DNA from: Candidatus Babelota bacterium
Lineage (GTDB): Bacteria > Babelota > Babeliae > Babelales > Chromulinivoraceae
Reading direction: 5' to 3'
Length of the DNA: 37,265 bases
Assembly (NCBI GenBank): GCA_016183005.1
Contig: JACPFN010000010.1
Span: 1-37,265, forward strand
Shown in pieces: positions 9,839-22,265 of the stretch. The position numbers were made by a program, and so were the translations under genes. The first letter of the stretch is position 1. The number at the start of each line of letters is the position of its first letter. The notes below the pieces were generated by a model. That model saw only the letters and a list, made by a program, of their open reading frames with translations, was not told the origin of the DNA and ran no database searches.

Positions 9839-10183
9839 TTATTTTTTAATATCTATGTTGCTAAAAATAGTAATATGAGCATTTTTACAAAATTCATATA
9901 AAATTTGTCTGCATGCGCCACAGGGAAATGAGCCTGTATCGGTTACTAAGGCTATATGAGTAATTTTTTTATAACCTTGCGCTAAGGCTGAAAATATTGC
10001 CACGCGTTCTGCGCAAATAGTTAATCCATAGGATGCTGATTCAATATTGCATCCGCCGACAATCTGATTTTCTTCTGTTTGAATAGCTGCACCGACTTGA
10101 AATTTAGAATAAAAACACAGAGCGTTTTTTTGCATATCACGAGCAATTTGTAGTGTATTGGGATCAATCGATAAATATTTCAT
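9839..10183 (-). CDS. cdd: cytidine deaminase (short C-terminus)
   Basis: Zinc-dependent hydrolase converting cytidine/deoxycytidine to uridine/deoxyuridine (pyrimidine salvage). Zinc and catalytic residues are visible: CAE in GLTICAERVAIFSA and PCGACRQ; substrate residues lie in FQVGAA and GCNIESASYG. I chose the ATG at 10183 (MKYLSIDP, 114 aa) because it matches family N-termini; an in-frame ATG at 10231 would add 16 unmatched residues but sits only 3 nt after the previous stop. The protein ends at SNIDIKK, about 20-25 residues before the usual C-terminus with its LLP segment. No homologous continuation appears in other frames, so the truncation seems genuine. Confidence 0.9.
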   Translation of the reverse strand: MKYLSIDPNTLQIARDMQKNALCFYSKFQVGAAIQTEENQIVGGCNIESASYGLTICAERVAIFSALAQGYKKITHIALVTDTGSFPCGACRQILYEFCKNAHITIFSNIDIKK

Positions 10184-10234
10184 ACAATTTTTAAATATAA
10201 TACCATGTGATACTGTTGAGTATCGTAACATTTT

Positions 10235-10744: not shown

Positions 10745-10820
10745 TGGTCGGGGCAGCGAGACTCGAACTCACAGCCCCTCGCTCCCAAAGCGAGTGCGCT
10801 ACCAATTGCGCCATGCCCCG
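10745..10820 (-). tRNA. tRNA-Pro(UGG), copy 1
   Basis: 76 nt including encoded CCA (10745-10747). The acceptor stem CGGGGCA/TGCCCCG pairs fully. The anticodon loop TTTGGGA (anticodon TGG) sits between CTCGC and GCGAG. The sequence is identical to copy 2 at 18783-18858. It has its own promoter-like sequence at 10870-10897. Confidence 0.97.
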
Positions 10821-10869
10821 AATAACAGAATCATTTAAAAAATTTTGAAAGATCCTAAAGATAAAAATT

Positions 10870-10897
10870 AATATATCGATTTTTAGGATATTATCAA
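10870..10897 (-). promoter_or_regulatory. promoter of tRNA-Pro copy 1
   Basis: On the minus strand TTGATA (10892-10897) is followed after 16 bp by TATATT (10870-10875). The predicted start is ~40 nt upstream of the tRNA. It lies on the island side, so the element would supply the promoter for this tRNA copy. Confidence 0.55.
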
Positions 10898-10915
10898 GAA
10901 AGTTAGTTAAAATAA

Positions 10916-10947
10916 AAAAGGGATTTACTTTATAATAAATCCCTTTT
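10916..10947 (-). terminator. terminator after qmcA
   Basis: Perfect 12-bp arms AAAAGGGATTTA (10916-10927) and TAAATCCCTTTT (10936-10947). On the minus strand the stem runs into TTTTTTATTTT, as for an intrinsic terminator downstream of qmcA (stop at 11051). Confidence 0.85.
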
Positions 10948-11050
10948 GTTTGATTGTCTGATCAAATATACAACGAATGCTTTTTAAGACAGATTATTTT
11001 GTTGTATGCTAATATATTTTGTTAAAATAGGATATCAATTCATAATGTTT

Positions 11051-12040
11051 TTATTGAGCAGTAAAGATGTTTTTGATAGAAGCAACTGCGCTTGCAAGTG
11101 TTGATGCTTCGTAAGGGACAACAATCATTTTGTTATCTTTACCCTTGGTCATTTCTGGTAATACTTGTACATATTTTAATGCTGTAATGTATGCAGCAGG
11201 GTCGGCATTATTTCCAAGCGCAGATTTAATCATTTCAATAGTTTGTGCTTCGGCTTGTGCTATTTTGAGTTTGGATGTAGCTTCAGCTTCTGCTTCAATA
11301 ATTTTAGCTTGTGCTTGACCTTCTGCTTCAAGGATTTGTGATTCTCTTACCCCTTCAGCCTGCAAGATTGCTGAACGCTTTGCTCCTTCAGCTTCAAGAA
11401 TGATAGCGCGGCGATCACGCTCTGCGCGCATCTGTTTTTCCATTGCGATACGAATATCACGTGGTGGATTTACTTCTTGAAGTTCAACGCGGTTTACCTT
11501 TACGCCCCATTTATCGGTTGCATGATCAAGGATAACGCGAAGTTTTTCATTAATTTGATCGCGAGATATTAATGTTTCATCAAGATCTAAAGATCCGATA
11601 ACGTTTCGAAGTGTTGTTTGTGTTATTTTTTCAATTGCTTCTGGCAGATTTGAAACTTCATAAATTGCAGCTTTTACGTCAGTTATTTGATAGTACAATA
11701 GGGCATTAATTTCCATCATTACGTTATCTTTAGTAATTACGTTTTGTTTGGGGAAATCATATACAGATTCACGTAAATCGATGCGAGCAAATGCACGCAT
11801 ATAAGTTGCGTAATTATTAATTTGAGCATTAAAGTGTGTAAACGTCCAAAATACTTTACGTTTTTGCTCAATGAAAGGGATCATGAAGTGTAGTCCTGGA
11901 GCAAGTATGCGGTCAAATTTACCAAGACGTTCAACGACAACGGTTTCAGCCTGTTGAACTAATACGGTATTGCTTGCGATTAAAACTATAAGAAGGATAA
12001 GTGGAATAATGAAAAATACAGAGATTCCGAAAAAGATCAT
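11051..12040 (-). CDS. qmcA: SPFH/band 7 membrane scaffold protein, QmcA type
   Basis: 329 aa. One N-terminal transmembrane helix (residues ~5-25) is followed by the SPFH/band-7 domain: VERLGKFDRILAPGLHFMIPF, then KDNVMMEINALLYYQITD and TTLRNVIGSLDLDE. A long Ala/Glu-rich coiled coil follows (~215-275, EAEGAKRSAILQAEG repeats). Such proteins oligomerise into membrane microdomain scaffolds and associate with membrane proteases. The gene follows nfeD by 64 nt; this SPFH+NfeD pairing is widespread. SD GGG before ATG. YbbK is another name for the type. Confidence 0.93.
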   Translation of the reverse strand: MIFFGISVFFIIPLILLIVLIASNTVLVQQAETVVVERLGKFDRILAPGLHFMIPFIEQKRKVFWTFTHFNAQINNYATYMRAFARIDLRESVYDFPKQNVITKDNVMMEINALLYYQITDVKAAIYEVSNLPEAIEKITQTTLRNVIGSLDLDETLISRDQINEKLRVILDHATDKWGVKVNRVELQEVNPPRDIRIAMEKQMRAERDRRAIILEAEGAKRSAILQAEGVRESQILEAEGQAQAKIIEAEAEATSKLKIAQAEAQTIEMIKSALGNNADPAAYITALKYVQVLPEMTKGKDNKMIVVPYEASTLASAVASIKNIFTAQ

Positions 12041-12104
12041 ATAAAGACCCTTTATTTAATATGAGTTTTAAAATAATTTTTTATTTCAAGATCAGGTTGT
12101 GTAA

Positions 12105-12542
12105 TTAATCATGTAAAAGGTTTATTTGTAAATGACAGCCTTTAACACCGATGACTAAGGCTTTTTGTTCAATTATTAATTTTTCTTCTTTTTTTTGTAA
12201 TTTTACCATCCATAGTTCACCATCTACTTGGGCGTATCCTGTATCATCAGAAATGATTTCTGTAATTTCAACTATTTTGCCAATCATAAGATACATGTTT
12301 GATTCATAAAATTTAGATTGTTTTTTCTTTTGAAGAAATTTGACCATCAGATTTAGTAACAGAAACATAGCGCCAGAAGCTATAAAAAAGAAGATGTATT
12401 GATTAATGGGCAAATTGTTTTGGTATTCTGTAAGCATCGTGGTTAATGCTCCAAGTGCTAGAGCAAGAAAGAAGAATAACCCGGGATTTAGTATCTCTAT
12501 AAAAATAAAAAATGCTGAAATTATAAACCAGAACTTTGTCAT
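12105..12542 (-). CDS. nfeD: NfeD-like membrane protein (short form)
   Basis: 145 aa. Two to three hydrophobic segments (~4-35 and 45-68) are followed by a C-terminal OB-fold (~80-143; GKIVEITEIISDDTGYAQVDGELWMVK). This is the short NfeD form (NfeD1b-type/YbbJ) without the ClpP-like serine protease domain of long forms. It partners the downstream SPFH protein in an operon. SD GGGG before ATG. Confidence 0.85.
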   Translation of the reverse strand: MTKFWFIISAFFIFIEILNPGLFFFLALALGALTTMLTEYQNNLPINQYIFFFIASGAMFLLLNLMVKFLQKKKQSKFYESNMYLMIGKIVEITEIISDDTGYAQVDGELWMVKLQKKEEKLIIEQKALVIGVKGCHLQINLLHD

Positions 12543-12645
12543 TTTCTTGATCCCCTCTTATATTAAAGGGTAGAACTTATAGGTATTCAATTTTTATTAT
12601 GAAGTAAACATGAAAAAAAGCAAGTAAGAAAATGCTTTTATGTAT

Positions 12646-12677
12646 AAAGAAGATCGCTTAGCGAGGCGACCTTCTTT
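12646..12677. terminator. putative terminator between the M48 peptidase gene and nfeD
   Basis: Imperfect hairpin AAAGAAGATCGCT / AGGCGACCTTCTTT with loop TAGCG. Paired A and T ends allow termination on either strand; it would mainly close the minus-strand peptidase gene (stop at 12746). Confidence 0.6.
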
Positions 12678-12745
12678 GTATTATCTTGATTATTTGACTA
12701 AAGGCAGCAAAAACTTCGCAGCATTGCTTCCTGAAGCCATGGCCT

Positions 12746-13663
12746 TTAGGTCGTGGTCGGTTTATTTTTTGCAAGTTTTAATAAATATTCTTTACGATCT
12801 TTACCTTGAGGATGCCCAGAATAAATAGTAGTTGGTAATTTCAAAAACCAATTATTCGGATCTTTATACATCTCTATAATATCTTGCTCCTGAGCAAAAA
12901 AATGCGCTGCCTGAATAATTTCTTCAGCGGTGCTATATTTTGCTGCAAATTTATCAGCTCTTTTTTCTGCTGCAGTTTTAAAAACCAAATTAAAAAAAAG
13001 TGTTAGGACAATATCTATAAACATACCTACTATTAAACCAATAAGAATCGCAAGCAACGGATTAGTAAAAAATAATATCATGTTAACAACCGTTATCCCT
13101 GCAAAGACAGTTAAAGCACCGGTTAAGAAAATAACCCATAATTTTTTATATGAATAATGATCAATAACATGGCCAAGTTCATGCTTAAAAATAAAAGATT
13201 GAATTCCCGGAGTTAGGTTTTGTGATTGCCAAACTTGACGCTTTTTCCCTAAGTCATTTAATTTTGATTCATACAATTGATGGAAAATATTTATAATAGG
13301 CGTCACATTTGCATCACCACTGCAAATACTGCAAGTCGTTGAATCTATTACTATTGTTTTTCCAATAGCCATAGCTATTTGTTGCGCTGTATAAGCGTAC
13401 TTAATAATAATTTTTGATGGATCAACATTGCATAATGTAATATAGGATCTAAACATTTCTCTATGCTCACCAGAAGGAGTGTACAATAATCCATTCTCAA
13501 GAGCTGCAGTCTGTACATAGCTCAAATACCAGATATAAATACCCATGCATACAGAAACTATCAACTGTACAAAAAAATTGGTCAATAATTCAGGAAATAT
13601 ATAAAAAAATAATATAATTGGTAAAGATAAACGAATAAATCCTATAATCTGTTGCTGTAACAT
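12746..13663 (-). CDS. M48-type (HtpX/Ste24-like) membrane zinc metallopeptidase
   Basis: 305 aa. Two N-terminal membrane segments (~8-55), then zinc motif HELGH at 161-165, two further membrane segments (~175-225), and third zinc ligand Glu233 in TAAEKRADKFAAKY. A SGHPQGKDRKEYL block near the end is the usual M48 'HP..R' element. This topology is that of M48 membrane peptidases such as HtpX, which degrade misfolded membrane proteins. A CSICSG pair at ~125-130 is unusual. The gene is directly upstream of nfeD-qmcA on the same strand, so a membrane quality-control module is plausible. SD GGA before ATG. Confidence 0.87.
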   Translation of the reverse strand: MLQQQIIGFIRLSLPIILFFYIFPELLTNFFVQLIVSVCMGIYIWYLSYVQTAALENGLLYTPSGEHREMFRSYITLCNVDPSKIIIKYAYTAQQIAMAIGKTIVIDSTTCSICSGDANVTPIINIFHQLYESKLNDLGKKRQVWQSQNLTPGIQSFIFKHELGHVIDHYSYKKLWVIFLTGALTVFAGITVVNMILFFTNPLLAILIGLIVGMFIDIVLTLFFNLVFKTAAEKRADKFAAKYSTAEEIIQAAHFFAQEQDIIEMYKDPNNWFLKLPTTIYSGHPQGKDRKEYLLKLAKNKPTTT

Positions 13664-13690
13664 AATTTCCGTTCTTTTTATAATAATATT

Positions 13691-14142
13691 TTAATTTTTA
13701 CTTTTGGTTCTAATTTGTCTGTCCAACTCAGAATATTTGAGCTCAAGATCTTGTCTGCCACGTTCTAATCTATCTACAAGCTGTGTTTTGATTTCATCCT
13801 CACAAAAAGGTCTATCAAAATTTGTACTTGCACTAATAAGACATGGTAAATTAAAATCATATTCATTTAAATTTTCAAAATTTCGTTGATGACGATTTAC
13901 TTGCAGATGCAATCCAATATACAGGACTTCGACAAATAATTCAATAATCTGATCTAGGACAGTCCCATTTTTAATATTGTTTTGTTCGAACTTTTTACTG
14001 GATGGCTCTAACGTAGATCTAGAGCTAAATGAGCCGTTTCTTCTCTTTTTTTAGTGTTTGTTAAAGATTCCGATTTTATACTTAATGACGTGCTAAAAAG
14101 CATTATAGCGCACATACGATGTAATATAATTAACTTCTTCAT
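13691..14142 (-). pseudogene. secreted orphan protein broken by a frameshift in an A-tract
   Basis: From ATG 14142 (SD GGAG) a signal peptide is encoded (MKKLIILHRMCAIMLFSTSL); the frame runs ~46 codons to TAG at ~14016. The -1 frame is open from ~14050 down to 13691 and ends in a coiled-coil-like tail (VDRLERGRQDLELKYSELD). Adding one A to the 7-A run at ~14046-14052 joins both parts into one ~150-aa secreted protein. Codons in the middle are antisense to a recombinase relic (13968-14054). It may be a pseudogene, a slippage-controlled gene or a sequencing error. Confidence 0.55.
13968..14054 (+). pseudogene. relic of the 3' end of a serine recombinase gene
   Basis: Read on plus, this segment gives ILFCSNFLLDG...VDLELNEPF followed by TAG at 14052. 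It parallels KLFCSKIVLDG...PDLELNEPF in the fragment at ~18690-18750; the DNA shares ATTGTTTTGTTC and GATCTAGAGCT-AATGAGCC. No upstream recombinase sequence is visible (a stop lies at ~13946). The secreted orphan on the other strand runs across it. Confidence 0.55.
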
Positions 14143-14177
14143 AAAATTCTCCACATTAAAATGACTTACGTATCTAT

Positions 14178-14831
14178 TTATTTGGTAACAATAGGTGTTT
14201 GATTTTTATGATATGAACATTGTTGGCCTTTAAATTGCTTTTGTATCCTAAGTATTTCATCAGAAGATAGATAGCCTTTATCAGTCCATTGTTTTTCACG
14301 TTCATATGTTTCATGACACTCTTTTAAGTGATCACTGCATTCTTGTAAGCATGTTTCGCAGGCTACACCAAAACTTGCTTCAGTATCAGCACGCCTTTCC
14401 ATAGATTGTATAATTTTAGGATCTAATAAAGCTGCTGTTGTTAGCCCTAAGAAAGCACTAGCTAATTTGGGAAATAATGAATTATTTTCATTGTTTAAGA
14501 GTGGGTACATTAAAAATGGTAACCCAAGAGCTATAGATACTTTTAGTAAGTTTTTTACTATATAATCATTATGTTTAATATGTGAAGCTTCATGAAATAT
14601 TGTAAATCGTTTAACACCATATGGTTCATTGTCTAATAGACGTTTATACACACGAATTTGATTACGACCAGCTTCAGCATACTTATTACAATCAATATCA
14701 CAGCTTTCAACCAATGGAATATCTATAGAAATTCCTAATTTTGTTTTAGCATCAGCTAACATTTCTTGATAGCTGAACGATGCTTGTATGGAACCAACTA
14801 TACTAAATAATATGATTAAGATTTTTTTCAT
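14178..14831 (-). CDS. secreted HExxH metallopeptidase with Cys-rich tail
   Basis: 217 aa. Signal peptide at 1-~18 (MKKILIILFSIVGSIQAS). Zinc motif HEASH at 80-84 and third ligand candidate Glu145 in QSMERRADTEAS give the M48-like HExxH...E arrangement; the block between holds one or two hydrophobic segments (~95-112, 122-136). The C-terminus has a Cys cluster (CETCLQECSDHLKEC) suited to disulfides outside the cytoplasm. It looks like an exported relative of the M48 peptidase at 12746. Strong SD GGGGG before ATG. Substrate unknown. Confidence 0.75.
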   Translation of the reverse strand: MKKILIILFSIVGSIQASFSYQEMLADAKTKLGISIDIPLVESCDIDCNKYAEAGRNQIRVYKRLLDNEPYGVKRFTIFHEASHIKHNDYIVKNLLKVSIALGLPFLMYPLLNNENNSLFPKLASAFLGLTTAALLDPKIIQSMERRADTEASFGVACETCLQECSDHLKECHETYEREKQWTDKGYLSSDEILRIQKQFKGQQCSYHKNQTPIVTK

Positions 14832-14981
14832 AATACCCCCATAAAAATGACCTATTAATATAAATAATAGCTAATAGTAAGGGTTGAAAGCAATAGTTTT
14901 TCGTGATAATTGTATCCAATTTATCTTAATTTTACACTAGAGTTCTTTCGAAACTAGCCATAGATCGAATTTCAAGGTAAA

Positions 14982-15006
14982 ATTAATGTCCAGAGGAGAC
15001 ATTAAT
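14982..15006 (+). promoter_or_regulatory. start-site hairpin of IS element A transposase
   Basis: Perfect 9-bp arms ATTAATGTC (14982-14990) and GACATTAAT (14998-15006). The loop CAGAGGA holds most of the SD and the right arm holds part of the start codon (ATG 15005-15007), so folding could limit transposase translation. Confidence 0.5.
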
Positions 15007-15828
15007 GAAATATGAATCAATTCAAAACTTACAATCAAAAGATTTTCGTAGACTAACTGGGGTAAAGCAAGTTACATTTAAACATATGGTTGAAATTTTA
15101 AGTGCTGCAGATAAAACAAAAAAGATATCTGGTGGACGTAAAAATAAATTAAGCATAGAAAATCAATTGTTATTAACACTTGAGTATTTTCGAGAATATA
15201 GAACTTATTTTCATATTGGAAAAAGTTATGGAATTAGCGAAAGTGCGGCATACAAAACTGTAAAATGGATAGAAAGCATTTTGATTAAACATAAAACATT
15301 CGCTTTGCCTGGTCGCAAAGAACTTTCAAAATATAAAGCAGATGAAATTATATTATTTGACGTGACTGAAACGCCTATTCAAAGACCAAAAAAAAGCAAA
15401 AACAATTTTATTCTGGTAAGAAAAAACGACATACATTTAAAACACAGGTAGCAGTTTATAAATCAAGCGGTAAAATTGTAAGTACTGCTTTTGCAAAAGG
15501 AAGAAATCATGATTTTAAAATTTTTAAAAACTCTAAAAATCATGTTCATCCTGAAGTTAAAATCATTGTAGATACTGGATATGTAGGAATTCAAAAAATG
15601 CATTCAAATAGTGAAATACCTAAAAAAAGATCTAAAGAAAATCCTTTAACTAAAGAAGATAAAAAGAATAATCGAGAAATATCTAAAAAAAAAGTTTCTA
15701 ATGAAAATGTTATAAGCTCTCTTAAGCGATTTGCAATTGTTTCTGATCCGTACAGAAATCGTAGAAAACGATTTGGTTTACGATTTAATTTAATTGCAGC
15801 TATTCATAATTTTGAGTTAGATAATTGA
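15005..15828 (+). CDS. IS5-family transposase (DDE_Tnp_4 type), made by -1 frameshift
   Basis: The first frame (15005-15451) encodes an HTH domain (TGVKQVTFKHMVEIL; SYGISESAAYKTVKWIE) and the first catalytic Asp (FDVTETPIQRPKK). The rest (QFYSGKKKRHTFKTQ, then GRNHDFKIFK, VDTGYVGIQKMH, ISSLKRFAI and the RNRRKRFGLRFNLIAAI end) is in the -1 frame, ending at 15828. The switch point is the A-run at 15388-15395. After a -1 slip the protein is ~275 aa, a normal length. SD AGGAG lies 6-8 nt before ATG. HTH_Tnp_4 plus DDE_Tnp_4 architecture puts it in IS5; the subgroup is not certain. Confidence 0.85.
15388..15394 (+). promoter_or_regulatory. -1 ribosomal frameshift site (A AAA AAA) in transposase
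   Basis: In zero frame CCA AAA AAA AGC; a -1 slip on A AAA AAA gives ...K K K Q K Q F Y S G K K, which restores homology. The heptamer is correctly phased for programmed frameshifting, as known in several IS families. No downstream stimulator was established. Confidence 0.6.
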
Positions 15829-15866
15829 GTTTCGAAAGATGTCTACTTAAAAATAGTTTGCGTGAT

Positions 15867-15906
15867 AACGACCTATATGACATCATAAAATTTCATATAG
15901 GTCGTT
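15867..15906. terminator. terminator between IS element A and the small membrane protein gene
   Basis: Perfect 14-bp arms AACGACCTATATGA (15867-15880) and TCATATAGGTCGTT (15893-15906) with a 12-nt loop. It sits just downstream of the minus-strand gene ending at 15933; A/T-rich ends allow use on both strands. Confidence 0.75.
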
Positions 15907-15932
15907 AAAATTGCGTTAATTATAGGCTAAGT

Positions 15933-16250
15933 TTACTTAGTAGTGCTATATACAGTAGCTAAAATAGCTGTTACTAGGGCACCAAGACCGAAATAGGTAC
16001 TTGCTGTTTTTTCTCCATTATAAGCCATTATCCCTGCTGTAGCGGCACATATAGCCGGAACGAAGGTTTTTGGTGTAAAAGGAGTAGATTCTGTACCAGG
16101 TTTGTATGTGTTAATTGCAGCTGCTACAAGTGCACTGGTTCCAATATAAGCACCAGCACCGATGAGACCTTCTTGTATTCCATTGCCTTGAGCTGGTCGT
16201 ATTTGTGAACCAATCATAAGAATAGACATAAACATTAATAATTTTTTCAT
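15933..16250 (-). CDS. small exported/membrane protein of unknown function
   Basis: 105 aa. Signal peptide at 1-~22 (MKKLLMFMSILMIGSQIRPAQG), then two Gly/Ala-rich hydrophobic segments (~26-48, GLIGAGAYIGTSALVAAA; ~65-100, GLGALVTAILATVYS) separated by a short Pro/Thr-rich loop. This suggests a small two-pass membrane protein or glycine-zipper type, but I recognise no family. SD AGGA before ATG; a TATAAT-like -10 on the minus strand at 16297-16302. It lies between two IS elements inside the island. Confidence 0.6.
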   Translation of the reverse strand: MKKLLMFMSILMIGSQIRPAQGNGIQEGLIGAGAYIGTSALVAAAINTYKPGTESTPFTPKTFVPAICAATAGIMAYNGEKTASTYFGLGALVTAILATVYSTTK

Positions 16251-16387
16251 ATAATTTCCTTTATTTACAAGGTCGAATTAATGATAAATTTGACACATTA
16301 TAAGCATACCATAGGTATACTATGTGCACAAAAGGAGTAGGGGTGTTTCAAGAGCTTTGCTGGATTTTGTGAAATTATAAATTTTTA

Positions 16388-16462
16388 AAGCATTCAGTAC
16401 TGGCTGTGCCAGGCGTAGCTCGTAAGAGCGAAGACTGGTCGGAGTCAGTGTGTGCACAGATC
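16388..16462. other. GC-rich multi-hairpin segment in the 16251-16576 gap
   Basis: The 326-bp gap before the IS30 element is AT-rich except here. Three stems are visible: CTGGC-TGT-GCCAG (16400-16412), GCTC-GTAA-GAGC with a GNRA loop (16418-16429), and ACTG...CAGT (16434-16449). An alternative outer pair is CTGTGC (16404-16409) with GCACAG (16454-16459). It could be a structured RNA, a dispersed repeat or debris from a coding region; one plus frame is open across it (LAVPGVARKSEDWSESV). Nothing else in the gap is recognisable apart from the -10 of the 15933 gene and GGTGA/TCACC arms at 16559-16576. Confidence 0.4.
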
Positions 16463-16585
16463 GAACTTTTAGTTGGAAAAAATTGAAGGATCAATTGTTT
16501 AAAATTATCAAACCTAGCTTGAAAATTTATTAATCCATGAGAATGTGTGATTTGTGCTTGGTGAATTCAACTCACCAGTGCAACA

Positions 16586-17557
16586 CTAACATATAATTCC
16601 TTGTAGCATACATTCTTGACTAAAAATTTGAAGTGGTGAAAAAAAGTTTAAAGTTTTTCGTGGTCGATTATTCAGTTTTTCTTCAACAAATTTTAACATT
16701 TTTTCTGAAATTGAAGCAAAACAAGTTTTTTTAGGAAAATACTGGCGGATTAATCCGTTAGTATTTTCATTTAATCCACGTTGCCATGAAGCATATGGAT
16801 CAGCAAAAAAGAACTTAGCTTCAAGCGCTTTTGTAATTTCTTCATGATCAGCAAATTCTTTTCCATTATCCGATGTAATCGTGTGAACAACCGCTTTCAG
16901 CGGGTTGAGCAGTTTAACAACTGCTCTTAAAATAGAAGCAGAGTCTTTATACTCAGACATTGCTGTAAGTGTATATTTTGACACTCTTTCTACAACGGTA
17001 ATGATAAAATTTTTATGATCTTTGCCAACCACTAAATCAATCTCCCAATCACCAATTCGACTTTTATTGTCTACAATTTTTGGCCTATCATGAATGCTAA
17101 CTTTATTTTTAATTTGACCTCTTTTTTCCTTTGCACCTCGCTTTCGATATCTTCTCTTATGACCATGCCTGAGATGTTTATACAATGTGCCACCAGCTTT
17201 TTTATCAGACCAAACATGTTGATAAATTCGCTTATGACTAATGTAAGCACTTTCTTGTTTTAACACTCCTGAAATCTGTTCTGGACTCCAATCCTGTCGT
17301 AACATTGATTCTATTTTCTCAATCAACTCAGATGTCATTTTTATAAATTTCTTGGACATCGTTTTTCGGGCATCAGCCTTAGCATTTGCTTGATTTGGTC
17401 GATATCCTTTTTGTCCAACATTCCTTTTCAGTTCACGGCTTATTGTTGAAAAATGCTTACCTATAGTTTCAGCTATTTTTCTACTGCTAAGCCCTGAGTT
17501 TTTAAGCTCATAAATTTAAAATCGATTTTCTTGATGAATTCGTGTATATTTTTCCAA
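16586..17557 (-). pseudogene. IS30-family transposase with an early in-frame stop
   Basis: The reading frame from TTG 17557 gives EKYTRIHQENRF, a TAA at 17516-17518, then IYELKNSGLSSRKIAETIG...TISRELKRN, the normal IS30 N-terminal HTH, all in the same frame down to 16586. Relatives normally have a residue such as Gln at the stop (RYQIYEL), so a CAA to TAA change is likely. The catalytic core is intact: GDWEIDLVVG, TSDNGKEF and the NENTNGLIRQYFPKK block with Glu. An internal ATG at 17359 could still give a 257-aa product lacking the HTH. SD AAGGG is 6 nt before the TTG, inside a hairpin arm. Confidence 0.75.
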
Positions 17558-17628
17558 GCAACACCCTTCAAAATTTGAGATGACATTTTTGTGTTAAAAA
17601 TATCATCTCAAATTTTGAAAGGTGTTGC
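17558..17628. repeat. 33-bp inverted repeat at the IS30 end, covering the transposase SD
   Basis: Arms 17558-17590 and 17596-17628 pair over 33 bp; the two differing positions would form G-U pairs in minus-strand RNA. The loop is 5 nt. On the minus strand the second arm contains the SD (AAGGG) of the TTG start at 17557, so an RNA entering from outside the IS could hide the ribosome binding site. Confidence 0.7.
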
Positions 17629-17640
17629 ACTAGGCTGTAT

Positions 17641-18395
17641 CTACATTTGATTTAACCAAACATAAGAACAAGCAAGATATACCAATGAAGCATAATTTCG
17701 TAAATATTTTTCAAATCTAACTGCAAGTTTTCTAAATTGTTTTAATCTTCCAAATAATCTTTCAATTTTGTTTCTTAATTTATATGCAATAGGATCATGT
17801 TTTCTTGCATGAATTCTATTTTTTCTGGCAGGGATAACAGCTTCACTTCCTTGAGTTGTTATAAAATTTACAATTTCATCAGAGTCATATCCTCGGTCAG
17901 CAATTACATTTGAATGTGGATATTTTTTAAGCAATGGTAAAGCATAATTGTAATCTGATTCTTCTCCAGCTGTAATTAAAAAATCAAGGGGTAATCCTGC
18001 TTCATCGCAAATCATATAAATTTTAGTCGTTAAACCTCCTCTGGAACGCCCCAGAGCCTGGTCTTTTTTTTAAACGTTGCAGCTTGTGAATGAGCCTTCA
18101 CAATAGTGATATCCAACATAATGTAAAAATTTTTTTTATCCTTTATCAAACATCGAAAAATCTTTTCCCAAATTTTTTTCTTTGCCCAGCGAGAAAATCT
18201 TTGATGCGTTGATTTATATTTTCCATATTTGCAAGGCAAGTCACTCCACCGAGCTCCTGACCGCAGAATCCATAAAACTCCATTTACAAATGTTCTATTA
18301 TCTGAGGCCGTTCTGCCTCTATCGCCTTTTTTTCCAGGCAAAAAATCTTTGATTTGTTTCCATTGTTCTGTTGTTACTTCGTATCTACCAGTCAT
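17641..18395 (-). CDS. IS5-family (IS427-like) transposase made by -1 frameshift
   Basis: The first part (18395-18030) encodes MTGRYEVTTEQWKQIKDFLPG, the usual N-terminal helix region, then GVLWILRSGARWSDLP and the first catalytic Asp (MLDITIVKAHSQAATFKKK). The second (through MICDEAGLPLDF, VIADRGYDSDEIV with the second Asp, IERLFGRLKQFRKLAVRFEK and ending at 17641) is in the -1 frame. The link DQALGRSRGGLTTKIY appears only if ribosomes slip at the A-run at 18063-18071. The fused product is ~250 aa, normal for this group. The gene looks intact. Confidence 0.88.
18063..18069 (-). promoter_or_regulatory. -1 ribosomal frameshift site (A AAA AAG)
   Basis: Minus-strand codons TTT AAA AAA AAG ACC contain A AAA AAG in the correct phase, the same heptamer as in E. 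coli dnaX. Slipping yields FKKKDQALGRSRGGLTT, the conserved IS5 core. Its exact phasing argues for programmed frameshifting. Confidence 0.75.
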
Positions 18396-18461
18396 TATAT
18401 ACTCCTTTGTATCGGAATATTATGACATATTTTCTTATTTTTTTAAATGTAGATACAGCCT

Positions 18462-18863
18462 AAAATTATTGATATGCATATCGATGGCAAAATAGAATCT
18501 GATATTTATCATGCCAAATTACAGGAATATAAAAGAGAAGAACAGGATGTTGCATTAGAGCTTAAATCTTATAGTACAGACTGGCGATCTGAGCTTTTAG
18601 CGGCTGAAGATGTGCTTAAATTAGCGAAAAATTTTAAACATGAATTTTTGAGTTCTAACTTTGAAGGAAAACAGCAATTCTTGAAATTGTTTTGTTCAAA
18701 AATTGTCTTGGATGGGGATATCCCTGATCTAGAGCTTAATGAGCCATTTAAAAGCATGAAGAGTGTTAAATTCCACTCAATGTGGTCGGGGCAGCGAGAC
18801 TCGAACTCACAGCCCCTCGCTCCCAAAGCGAGTGCGCTACCAATTGCGCCATGCCCCGAATAA
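18462..18863 (+). pseudogene. C-terminal fragment of a large serine recombinase, ending in tRNA-Pro
   Basis: Begins in frame right at the edge of IS element B (KIIDMHIDGKIESDIYHAKL) and matches the coiled-coil and C-terminal part of the recombinase at 35741 (LDKIDGKISEEFWQSKS). LKLFCSKIVLDG...ELNEPF aligns with the NILTSNCAYKDG...VELKPVF region there. Catalytic, recombinase and zinc-ribbon domains are absent; no N-terminal part is found left of the IS nest, so it was deleted. From ~18783 the frame reads antisense through the whole tRNA-Pro (MWSGQRDSN...) to TAA at 18861. The last residues of the native protein presumably came from the tRNA antisense sequence. Confidence 0.75.
18783..18858 (-). 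tRNA. tRNA-Pro(UGG), copy 2
   Basis: Identical in all 76 nt to copy 1, with encoded CCA (18783-18785). It lies 42 nt downstream of tRNA-His and is probably co-transcribed with it. The recombinase fragment converges on its 3' end. Confidence 0.97.
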
Positions 18864-18900: not shown

Positions 18901-18977
18901 TGGGGTGAGCGGTGGGGATTGAACCCACGACCCCCAGAACCACAACCTGGTGCTCTACCAACTGAGCTACGCTCACC
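18901..18977 (-). tRNA. tRNA-His(GUG)
   Basis: 77 nt with the extra 5' G(-1) opposite discriminator C typical of tRNA-His. Acceptor stem GTGAGCG/CGCTCAC, anticodon loop TTGTGGT (anticodon GTG), encoded CCA at 18901-18903. First gene of the His-Pro tRNA pair. Confidence 0.96.
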
Positions 18978-19759: not shown

Positions 19760-22265
19760 ATGAAGAATAATATTAAAGTTATTGGTGCTCGTGAGCATAA
19801 TTTAAAAAACATCTCTGTTTCTATTCCTAAAGATTCTTTGGTCGTTATTACGGGACCTTCTGGTTCTGGTAAAAGCTCTTTAGCTCTTGATATTTTATTT
19901 GTAGAGGGAAAGCGACGTTATATGGAATCGCTTTCATCCTATGCACGACAATTTTTGGGTATTGCAAAAAAACCAGATTTTGACCGAATTGAAGGTCTTT
20001 GTCCCGCTATTGCTATTGAGCAAAAAACTGTTGGACATAATCCTCGTTCAACCGTGGGGACTATAACCGAAGTTTATGATTATTTACGGGTATTATTTGC
20101 TCGAATTGGAGTTCCGCATTGTTTTTTGTGTAATGAAAAGATTAAAGTTTATAGTTCAAGTCAAATTTCTCAGTATGTTGTAATGGTTTATGCACATAAA
20201 AATGTAACTATTGCAGCTCCTATAGCTCATCAAAAAAAGGGTGAGTTTAAAAATGAGCTTGCAGATTTCTTGGCTAAGGGTTTTTATCGATTTATTATCG
20301 ATGGTAAATTGCATAAGATTTCACACGTCGGTGAAATTGAAAAATTGGATTTAAAAAAAACTTATAAACATACGATTGATGTATTGCTTGATAGTATAAC
20401 AATTGACCAAGATGATGATTGTCTTGCTCGCATACAAGAATCGGTTCAAAAAAGTTTTGATTTTACTGATGGGCTTTGCAAGATTACGGTTGATGATCAA
20501 ACGACATTGTACTCTTCAAAGCGAATGTGTTTAACCTGTCAGGTTGGTTTTCCTGAACTTGAACCCCGTTTTTTTTCTTTTAATTCTCCTATTGGTGCTT
20601 GTTCTGCATGCGATGGGCTTGGGGTTGAGTATGGTAAAGAAGAGGATATGTATGCAATGTATATGGGGCATGAGCTTAAATTATGTAGACAATGTCAGGG
20701 AAAAAGACTTAATAAGCAGGCTTTGTCCGTTACGGTAGGCGGTAAAAATATTTTTGAAATTGGAGAAATGTCGATTGATGATACTTTAGATTTTTTAAGA
20801 AATTTAAAGCTTGATAATTTCGATTCTGAAATAGCTCTTGGAATTTTAAAAGAAACGTGTCAAAGGCTTGAATTCTTAGTGAATGTTGGACTTGCATATC
20901 TTTCATTAAATCGTACTGCTCGTACACTTTCTGGTGGAGAAGGACAACGAATTAGACTTGCAAAGCAGGTTGGTTGCGCATTGAGTGGGGTTTTATATAT
21001 TTTGGATGAACCAAGCATTGGTCTTCATCAGCGAGATAATGATCGTTTGATTCAGACCCTTAAAACACTTAAATGAGCATGATATCGATACTATTATGAT
21101 AGCTGATTATGTAGTTGATATGGGGCCTGCTGCGGGTATTCATGGTGGACAGGTTACTGCGGTTGGTACGCCACAAGAGCTTATGAGAAATCCAAGTTCA
21201 TTAACGGGTAAATATCTGTCGGGTAAATTAGGTATTTCTGTTCCTCAAAAACGTAGAACGACTAATCAATTTTTAACATTATATAATGCTACTAAAAATA
21301 ATCTTAAAGATCTTACTGTTATGTTTCCACTTAAGATTTTGTGTGCCGTTTCAGGTGTTTCTGGATCAGGGAAAAGTAGCTTGATTTTTGAAGAATTGGT
21401 TCCAACTTTGCAAAAAGAGCTTGGTTCTAAATTAAAGTGGAAGTTTTTTAATGAACAAAAAATTAAGGGTATTGAGCATATAGAAGATATGATTCAAATT
21501 GATCAAAGTCCGATTGGAAGGACTTCACGTTCAAATCCGGCTACTTATATTGGGATATTTAATGGAATCCGAGAAATTTTTGCATCGATTCCAGAAAGCA
21601 AAATTCGTGGGTATGACGTGGGTCAATTTAGTTTCAATGTTGATAAGGGGCGTTGTTATAAGTGTAAGGGTGAGGGAATTATCACCGTTTCTATGCATTT
21701 TTTACCTGATGTGGTGATGACCTGCAAGGTGTGTCACGGGAAGAAATATAGCGCTGAAACATTGCAAATCTTATACAAAGGTAAAAACATCTTTGATGTA
21801 CTAGAAATGACCGCCTTGGAGGCTTTAGAATTTTTTAAAGCACATAGCTCGATAGCAAAACGCTTACAGCTTTTGTGTGATGTGGGGCTTGATTATATTA
21901 AATTAGGCCAGCCAGCAACAACGCTTTCGGGTGGAGAAGCTCAGAGAATTAAGCTTGTTAATGAGCTTGCAAAGCGTGGTCAAAATACTCTATATATTTT
22001 AGATGAGCCAACCACGGGTCTTCATACTCATGATATTGTAAAATTATTAACGGTTTTAGAGCGTTTGATTAATAAAGGTAATTCAGTAATTGTCATTGAG
22101 CATAATTTAGATGTGCTTAAGGTCGCAGATTATATTATTGATCTGGGGCCAGAAGGCGGAGCTGCAGGAGGAGTTATTGTTGCTCAAGGAACTCCAGAAG
22201 TAGTTGCTGAAAATAAAAGTAGTTATACTGGTAAATATCTAAAAAAATATCTGCATTTACAGTAA
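19760..22265 (+). pseudogene. uvrA: excinuclease ABC subunit A, broken by a small deletion and frameshift
   Basis: UvrA recognises DNA damage and loads UvrB. Part 1 (19760-21076) has Walker A GPSGSGKSS (32-40), a UvrB-binding region, zinc module CLTC...CSAC, and LSGGEGQR (390-397), LDEPSIGLHQRDND. It ends ...LKTLK-TGA where LxxLRDLGNTVIVVEHD is expected. [18 protein letters not shown] resumes in another frame, so about 9 residues are missing (an apparent ~26-nt deletion). Part 2 (to 22265) has Walker [10 protein letters not shown], zinc module CYKC...[21 protein letters not shown] and VIVIEHN. The ~100-residue insertion domain normally after CDGLG is also absent. Part 2 has no SD at its first ATG (21096). 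Confidence 0.9.

Follow-up and report, generated by a model that had tools for sequence, protein, structure and literature searches.

Two identical tRNA-Pro genes at a gene hot spot of a Candidatus Babelota bacterium: a probable genus-level duplication with a decayed serine-recombinase element beside one copy

Introduction

The closest architecture that we found for the locus described here is that of the ssrA islands of Dehalococcoides, in which the 3' end of the large serine recombinase DsiB overlaps both attL and the RNA gene (PMC3146451). Insertion of serine recombinases into tRNA genes has been called rare (PMC3218068). Our locus lies in a stretch of 37,265 nt (the window) on contig JACPFN010000010.1 of assembly GCA_016183005.1, from a Candidatus Babelota bacterium, and consists of two identical tRNA-Pro genes that enclose about 8 kb. 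An initial annotation of the window had read this interval as an integrative element that carried a complete, expressible tRNA-Pro gene. Comparison with related genomes points to another history: a tRNA-Pro duplication as old as the genus has probably been kept identical by gene conversion, and a later element has decayed beside one of the copies (copy A). No published description of the locus was found in a search whose coverage left out most subscription journals.

Two identical tRNA-Pro genes

The genome of the window (G000; 905 kb in 17 contigs) was analysed within a set of 49 genomes. The genus is represented by four of them (G000-G003), G005 belongs to another genus of the same family, and the order is Candidatus Babeliales. 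The features in question are as follows.

18783..18858, minus strand: tRNA-Pro(UGG) copy A, at the ancestral position beside tRNA-His
10745..10820, minus strand: tRNA-Pro(UGG) copy B, the duplicate, seen only in this genus
18901..18976, minus strand: tRNA-His(GUG), conserved partner of copy A
10870..10897, minus strand: promoter-like site upstream of copy B, a consensus match only
10916..10947, minus strand: terminator-like hairpin between qmcA and copy B, a consensus match only

The two genes are full-length, identical and in the same orientation, as initially annotated: ARAGORN called tRNA-Pro(tgg) at both positions on the minus strand, the copies agree at 76/76 nt, and a repeat search of the window returned an 85-nt direct repeat (99% identity, spacing 8038) that contains them. 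The limits of homology were also described correctly, with the repeat made up of the 76/76 nt of the tRNA and 9 nt of 5' flank with one mismatch, and 0 nt beyond CCA. Copies A and B were the only strong tRNA-Pro matches in the 905 kb searched, and tRNA-Pro is the sole exact duplicate in the genome (29 tRNA hits, 28 distinct sequences). An assembly artefact is unlikely, because the pair is present with unique flanks in three separate genomes. The promoter-like sequence ascribed to copy B was found (TTGATA-N16-TATATT, 10897-10870) in a scan that gave 7 such sites versus 2.8 expected. Both copies look functional, in line with the proposal that both remain working genes, and copy B is apparently expressible.

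Concerted evolution of multi-copy tRNA genes leaves the copies alike within a genome and different between species. Among the matches listed, two strong tRNA-Pro matches were found in 3/49 genomes, all in the genus (G000, G001 and G003). Copies A and B showed 0/76 differences in each of these three pairs, versus differences at 2-5 of 76 positions between the three genomes; paralogues are closer within than between genomes, as in concerted evolution. Employing the tRNA-Pro of G002, G004, G006 and G007 as reference, we identified three derived changes special to G000 and two special to G003, all five of which are shared by A and B. Two of the three in G000 jointly preserve an acceptor-stem pair (G7-C66 to A7-U66, in our own numbering), which suggests that both copies are under selection, or that one is selected and conversion copies it to the other. 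The matching flanks (5'/3') measure 8 of 9/0 nt in G000, 2/1 nt in G001 and 28/13 nt in G003; these genome-specific boundaries fit conversion tracts, not a fixed att core. A single genus-level duplication followed by gene conversion, which we infer, requires the fewest events, and the identity pattern points to it.

Synteny of the tRNA-Pro pair

With the tRNA-His/tRNA-Pro stretch as query, a match was obtained in 48 of the 49 genomes, mostly to the whole pair or to adjoining halves. Judged by this synteny, copy A, whose pairing with tRNA-His is conserved throughout Candidatus Babeliales, is the ancestral gene. The interval between copies A and B ranges from 2.4 to 8 kb across the three genomes that have both. 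In G003, the pair encloses 2.4 kb with nfeD, qmcA and a gene for 155 aa, and no recombinase match was found in this interval; in G001, it encloses about 4 kb with a peptidase-like gene, qmcA in opposite orientation and small genes. In both genomes, a cdd-like gene and a neighbour gene for 279 aa lie on the same side of the pair. In G005, a uvrA-like gene (a name that we take from sequence motifs) is followed by tRNA-His, one tRNA-Pro gene only, some small genes and finally the neighbour gene for 279 aa, and no qmcA match was found there.

G005 therefore provides part of the empty site expected from the initial annotation, namely a single tRNA-Pro site without qmcA. The cargo of the supposed element, however, is not lacking in relatives: qmcA is core and was matched in 37/49 genomes. 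The case that would have refuted the initial annotation, qmcA at this site with only one tRNA-Pro, was found in none of the relatives, with G002 broken into contigs at the site. Of the 33 genomes outside the genus that have qmcA, 0 had it near a listed tRNA-Pro, with the reservation that many assemblies are fragmented and closeness across contig ends is possible. The two genes share a contig in G004, G018 and G036, 0.4-0.6 Mb apart; G008, G024 and G028 gave no good tRNA-Pro match, and in the remaining genomes qmcA and tRNA-Pro are on different contigs. These comparisons indicate that qmcA belongs to the core genes of the order, sited elsewhere in other genera and relocated into this site. A search for its former site with one query, the neighbouring protein in G004 (presumably a thymidylate kinase), gave no match in 4/4 genus genomes.

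A probable decayed element beside copy A

Between the two tRNA-Pro genes, the following features bear on an integrative element.

18462..18785, plus strand: relic of the C-terminus of a large serine recombinase; its frame enters the antisense of the tRNA-Pro CCA end (TGG = Trp)
17631..18462, minus strand: IS5-family insertion; its terminal inverted repeats of 18 nt are perfect, and the transposase is split over two frames (DUF4096 and DDE_Tnp_1)
16586..17359, minus strand: transposase with rve domain, which we take from sequence motifs to be IS30-like
16436..16442, minus strand: proposed scar (attR) CCGACCA, repeating the tRNA-Pro 3' end
16400..16435, minus strand: putative displaced native tRNA 3' flank, a tail resembling the one behind tRNA-Pro A of G001
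13968..14039, plus strand: second relic of the same recombinase C-terminus, with 71% identity to the first over 24 aa

The frame 18462-18791 showed 48-51% identity over 108-110 aa to the C-termini of tRNA-Asp-attached recombinases in other genomes, and 31% identity to the intact recombinase encoded at 35741-37177. None of the Resolvase, Recombinase and zinc-ribbon Pfam domains was found in 18462-18785; the intact protein has all three. The assignment of 18462-18785 as a recombinase relic is by similarity only.

In the sub-interval 16436-18785, this truncated integrase relic is located at attL, converges on the tRNA and is in frame with CCA. At the other end, 2347 nt from the same letters in copy A, the proposed scar and the putative displaced tail (16400-16442) mirror the attR of intact elements. 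The core pattern of the tail was found at 14 places in the 49 genomes, 9 of which follow a complete tRNA within 40 nt, and a longer pattern of 16400-16435 was found in 0/100 shuffles of the window. Based on the proposed scar and the tRNA-type tail, the element most likely inserted between copy A and A's own, native 3' flank. The mobile element itself is most likely the 2.35 kb at 16436-18785, which would have received the IS5-family and IS30-like insertions and lost its recombinase except for the end. Given the second relic at 13968-14039, recombinase elements probably entered the interval on at least two occasions. The interior had been annotated as insertion sequence (IS) elements and recombinase remnants; this description fits the transposases and the two C-terminal relics, but not the nfeD/qmcA part near copy B, which is core chromosome.

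Tails with the core CTGGCACRGCCAG are present behind many tRNA 3' ends, including L160 (G000 C4), L161 (G001), L162 (G047) and 16400-16435 of the window. In some cases the tail is followed by a small GIY-YIG gene, and the one in G001 scores PF01541 at 2.8e-7.

Recombinases at tRNA 3' ends

Related recombinases were collected as 30 loci from 17 of the 49 genomes; two additional weak rows come from broken copies and were assigned either no locus or the same locus, and L086 and L089 look like copies of one. A convergent tRNA was found at the 3' end of the recombinase gene in 28/30 loci; the tRNA CCA forms an in-frame Trp codon of the recombinase in 26 of the 28. The stop codon often lies within the antisense of the target tRNA. 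In named genomes from several phyla, 18 of 20 loci (at least 2 of the 20 being contigs already counted) have a convergent tRNA near the stop codon, 16 of them in frame. The targets (loci L061-L089 and L174-L193) are tRNA-Arg, Asp, Glu, Gln and Met, and in other phyla also Asn, Trp and Pro. The intact large serine recombinase of the window lies against tRNA-Arg in the same manner (35680-37177).

Besides that of the window, 25 element sides were examined in stretches of 2-40 kb. A repeat that starts about 10 nt from the tRNA 3' end was found in 5 of them (G004, G006-Met, G017, G018 and G038), and those of G017, G018 and G038 are only 11-13 nt long. These five elements agree with the statement in the initial annotation that integrative elements usually repeat only the 3' part of a tRNA. 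The other 20 sides showed no tRNA 3'-end repeat, several contigs having ended early, and a 115-nt match at G003-Asp is the tRNA itself. An identical complete tRNA was present on the element side in 0/25 cases. Scanning viral contigs with a tRNA-Asp-type recombinase gave no match.

As to cargo, the 16-kb element at tRNA-Met of G006 encodes two beta-lactamase-family (PF00144) proteins (L114, 9747-11726 and 15757-16929), and a DUF3987/Toprim protein is common to this element and that of G004.

Other genes of the interval and its flanks

The remaining genes of the interval and the flank common to the congeners are listed below.

9839..10231, minus strand: cytidine-deaminase-like (cdd-like) gene, presumably cdd from its motif, in the common flank
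11051..12040, minus strand: qmcA-like SPFH/Band_7 protein, core gene of the order
12105..12542, minus strand: nfeD-like gene, NfeD Pfam score 26.9 versus a cut-off of 29.1 bits (just below)
12746..13663, minus strand: M48-type membrane peptidase
14178..14831, minus strand: M48-like protein, weak (E 0.01)
15005..15451, plus strand: N-terminal part of a transposase (HTH_Tnp_4), in an insertion that has imperfect inverted repeats of 27 nt at 14929 and 15828

The nfeD counterpart in G003 scores above the Pfam cut-off. Outside the interval, the uvrA-like gene at 19760-22265 is split into two frames (438 and 389 aa), where relatives have one frame of about 840 aa; the split may be a mutation or a sequencing error. 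At the start of the contig (1-648), there is a gene for a collagen-like Gly-X-Thr repeat protein.

Discussion

We consider the following history probable. In the ancestor of the genus, a second full-length tRNA-Pro (B) would have been placed, together with the core operon nfeD-qmcA, between A and the cdd-like gene. Copies A and B would since have been held identical by gene conversion, both probably working, and the interval between them would have gained and lost genes. In G000, a large-serine-recombinase element would have entered the 3' end of A, repeating only the last tRNA bases as is usual for the family, and would then have decayed to 2.35 kb with IS insertions. Copy B may have originated by segmental duplication or from a circle that integrated by homology at the tRNA. 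The latter, as RecA-type integration of a circle with tRNA-Pro, nfeD and qmcA into the resident tRNA-Pro, is compatible with this history and would account for two complete copies and the relocation of the core operon without an integrase; however, we found no locus outside the genus in which tRNA-Pro adjoins qmcA and could have been the source, and no circle was seen, so that we regard this origin as possible but doubtful.

Several observations weigh against a genus-level duplication with a later element. The grouping of the four genus genomes is based on protein identities. Those of the uvrA-like protein pair G000 with G001 (83.7%) and G002 with G003 (82.5%), which would put the tRNA-Pro pair in both halves of the genus, but the cdd-like and 279-aa genes, which are faster and shorter, place G001 outside and do not pair it with G000. 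None of the three protein counts (uvrA-like, cdd-like, 279-aa) groups G000, G001 and G003 to the exclusion of G002. G002 itself has one tRNA-Pro, on a contig that ends in a transposase and breaks at the site; the first 9 kb of its cdd-like contig contain no tRNA, and its qmcA, on a third contig (L048, 183-473), has an in-frame internal deletion that left the two ends. In G001, the inverted qmcA and the lack of a recognised nfeD indicate that the interval was rearranged. The scar in G000 is only 7 nt long, and its identification leans mostly on the tail at 16400-16435. Finally, the identity pattern would be the same if three recent duplications had occurred independently at the same place.

This last scenario, with a recent duplication of tRNA-Pro in each species at a shared hot spot and no gene conversion, is the main alternative. 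The variation of repeat length by genome also suits it, but the duplication must then have happened three times and have put B on the cdd side of qmcA every time, and we judge it unlikely. It is highly improbable that one 8-kb integrative element brought the complete tRNA-Pro and left full tRNA genes at both ends. Such an element would explain the direct repeat in the same orientation and the recombinase relic adjoining copy A; the G003 pair, however, holds only nfeD, qmcA and one small gene without a recombinase match, the cargo is core chromosome, and none of the 25 other sides in the family has an identical full tRNA, five of them repeating about the last 10 nt only. Instead of one complete tRNA and, at the far end, a short 3' repeat, the 8-kb interval has complete copies with some matching 5' flank at both ends. 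Nor is its cargo missing from relatives: G005 has a single-tRNA site, yet most genomes of the set have qmcA. Congener synteny and the core cargo led us to reject the whole 8-kb interval as an integrative element. Congeners with other or fewer contents, and an identifiable element confined to a 2.35-kb sub-interval with its own putative short scar, likewise do not support the initial proposal of a tRNA-carrying element. More speculatively, and in our estimate improbably, the tRNA-Pro pair would be a recombination-active cassette border: circles would be captured and lost by way of homology to the whole tRNA gene, conversion would keep this gene usable, and the second copy would spare the cell when a serine-recombinase element, which takes its last codons and stop from the antisense of its target tRNA, invades the first.

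The locus is real and its parts are ordinary: duplicated tRNA genes that have stayed the same, a hot spot for genes and a tRNA-targeted element that has decayed. An "island" that lies between two full tRNA copies is not necessarily an element that carried a tRNA; here, synteny and shared substitutions tell another history. Compared with concerted evolution of multi-copy tRNA genes, the copies of this locus flank a hot spot of gene gain, and no bacterial precedent with the same layout was found in the literature searched. Islands of Haloquadratum are likewise bounded on either side by directly repeated tRNA sequence, but one of the two tRNAs is complete and the other truncated (PMC3119063), whereas here a complete tRNA gene is present at both ends.

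In Babeliales and beyond, there is a group of large serine recombinases that target tRNA genes and keep a fixed reading frame over the CCA end, although insertion of serine recombinases into tRNA genes has been described as rare in one report (PMC3218068). The same report names Mycobacterium AICEs (tRNA-Leu) and phage phiRSM1 (tRNA-Ser), which also have serine recombinases at tRNA genes; the hosts and elements differ from ours, and the likeness is in the type of target. The DsiB islands (PMC3146451) share more with the recombinase family found here: the recombinase at attL runs into the RNA gene, and the far end repeats only the 3' end of that gene. They target ssrA with a 20-bp repeat, whereas here several kinds of tRNA are used, about 10 nt are repeated and the CCA is nearly always read in the same frame; and, unlike DsiB, the recombinase copy at tRNA-Pro A is a relic.

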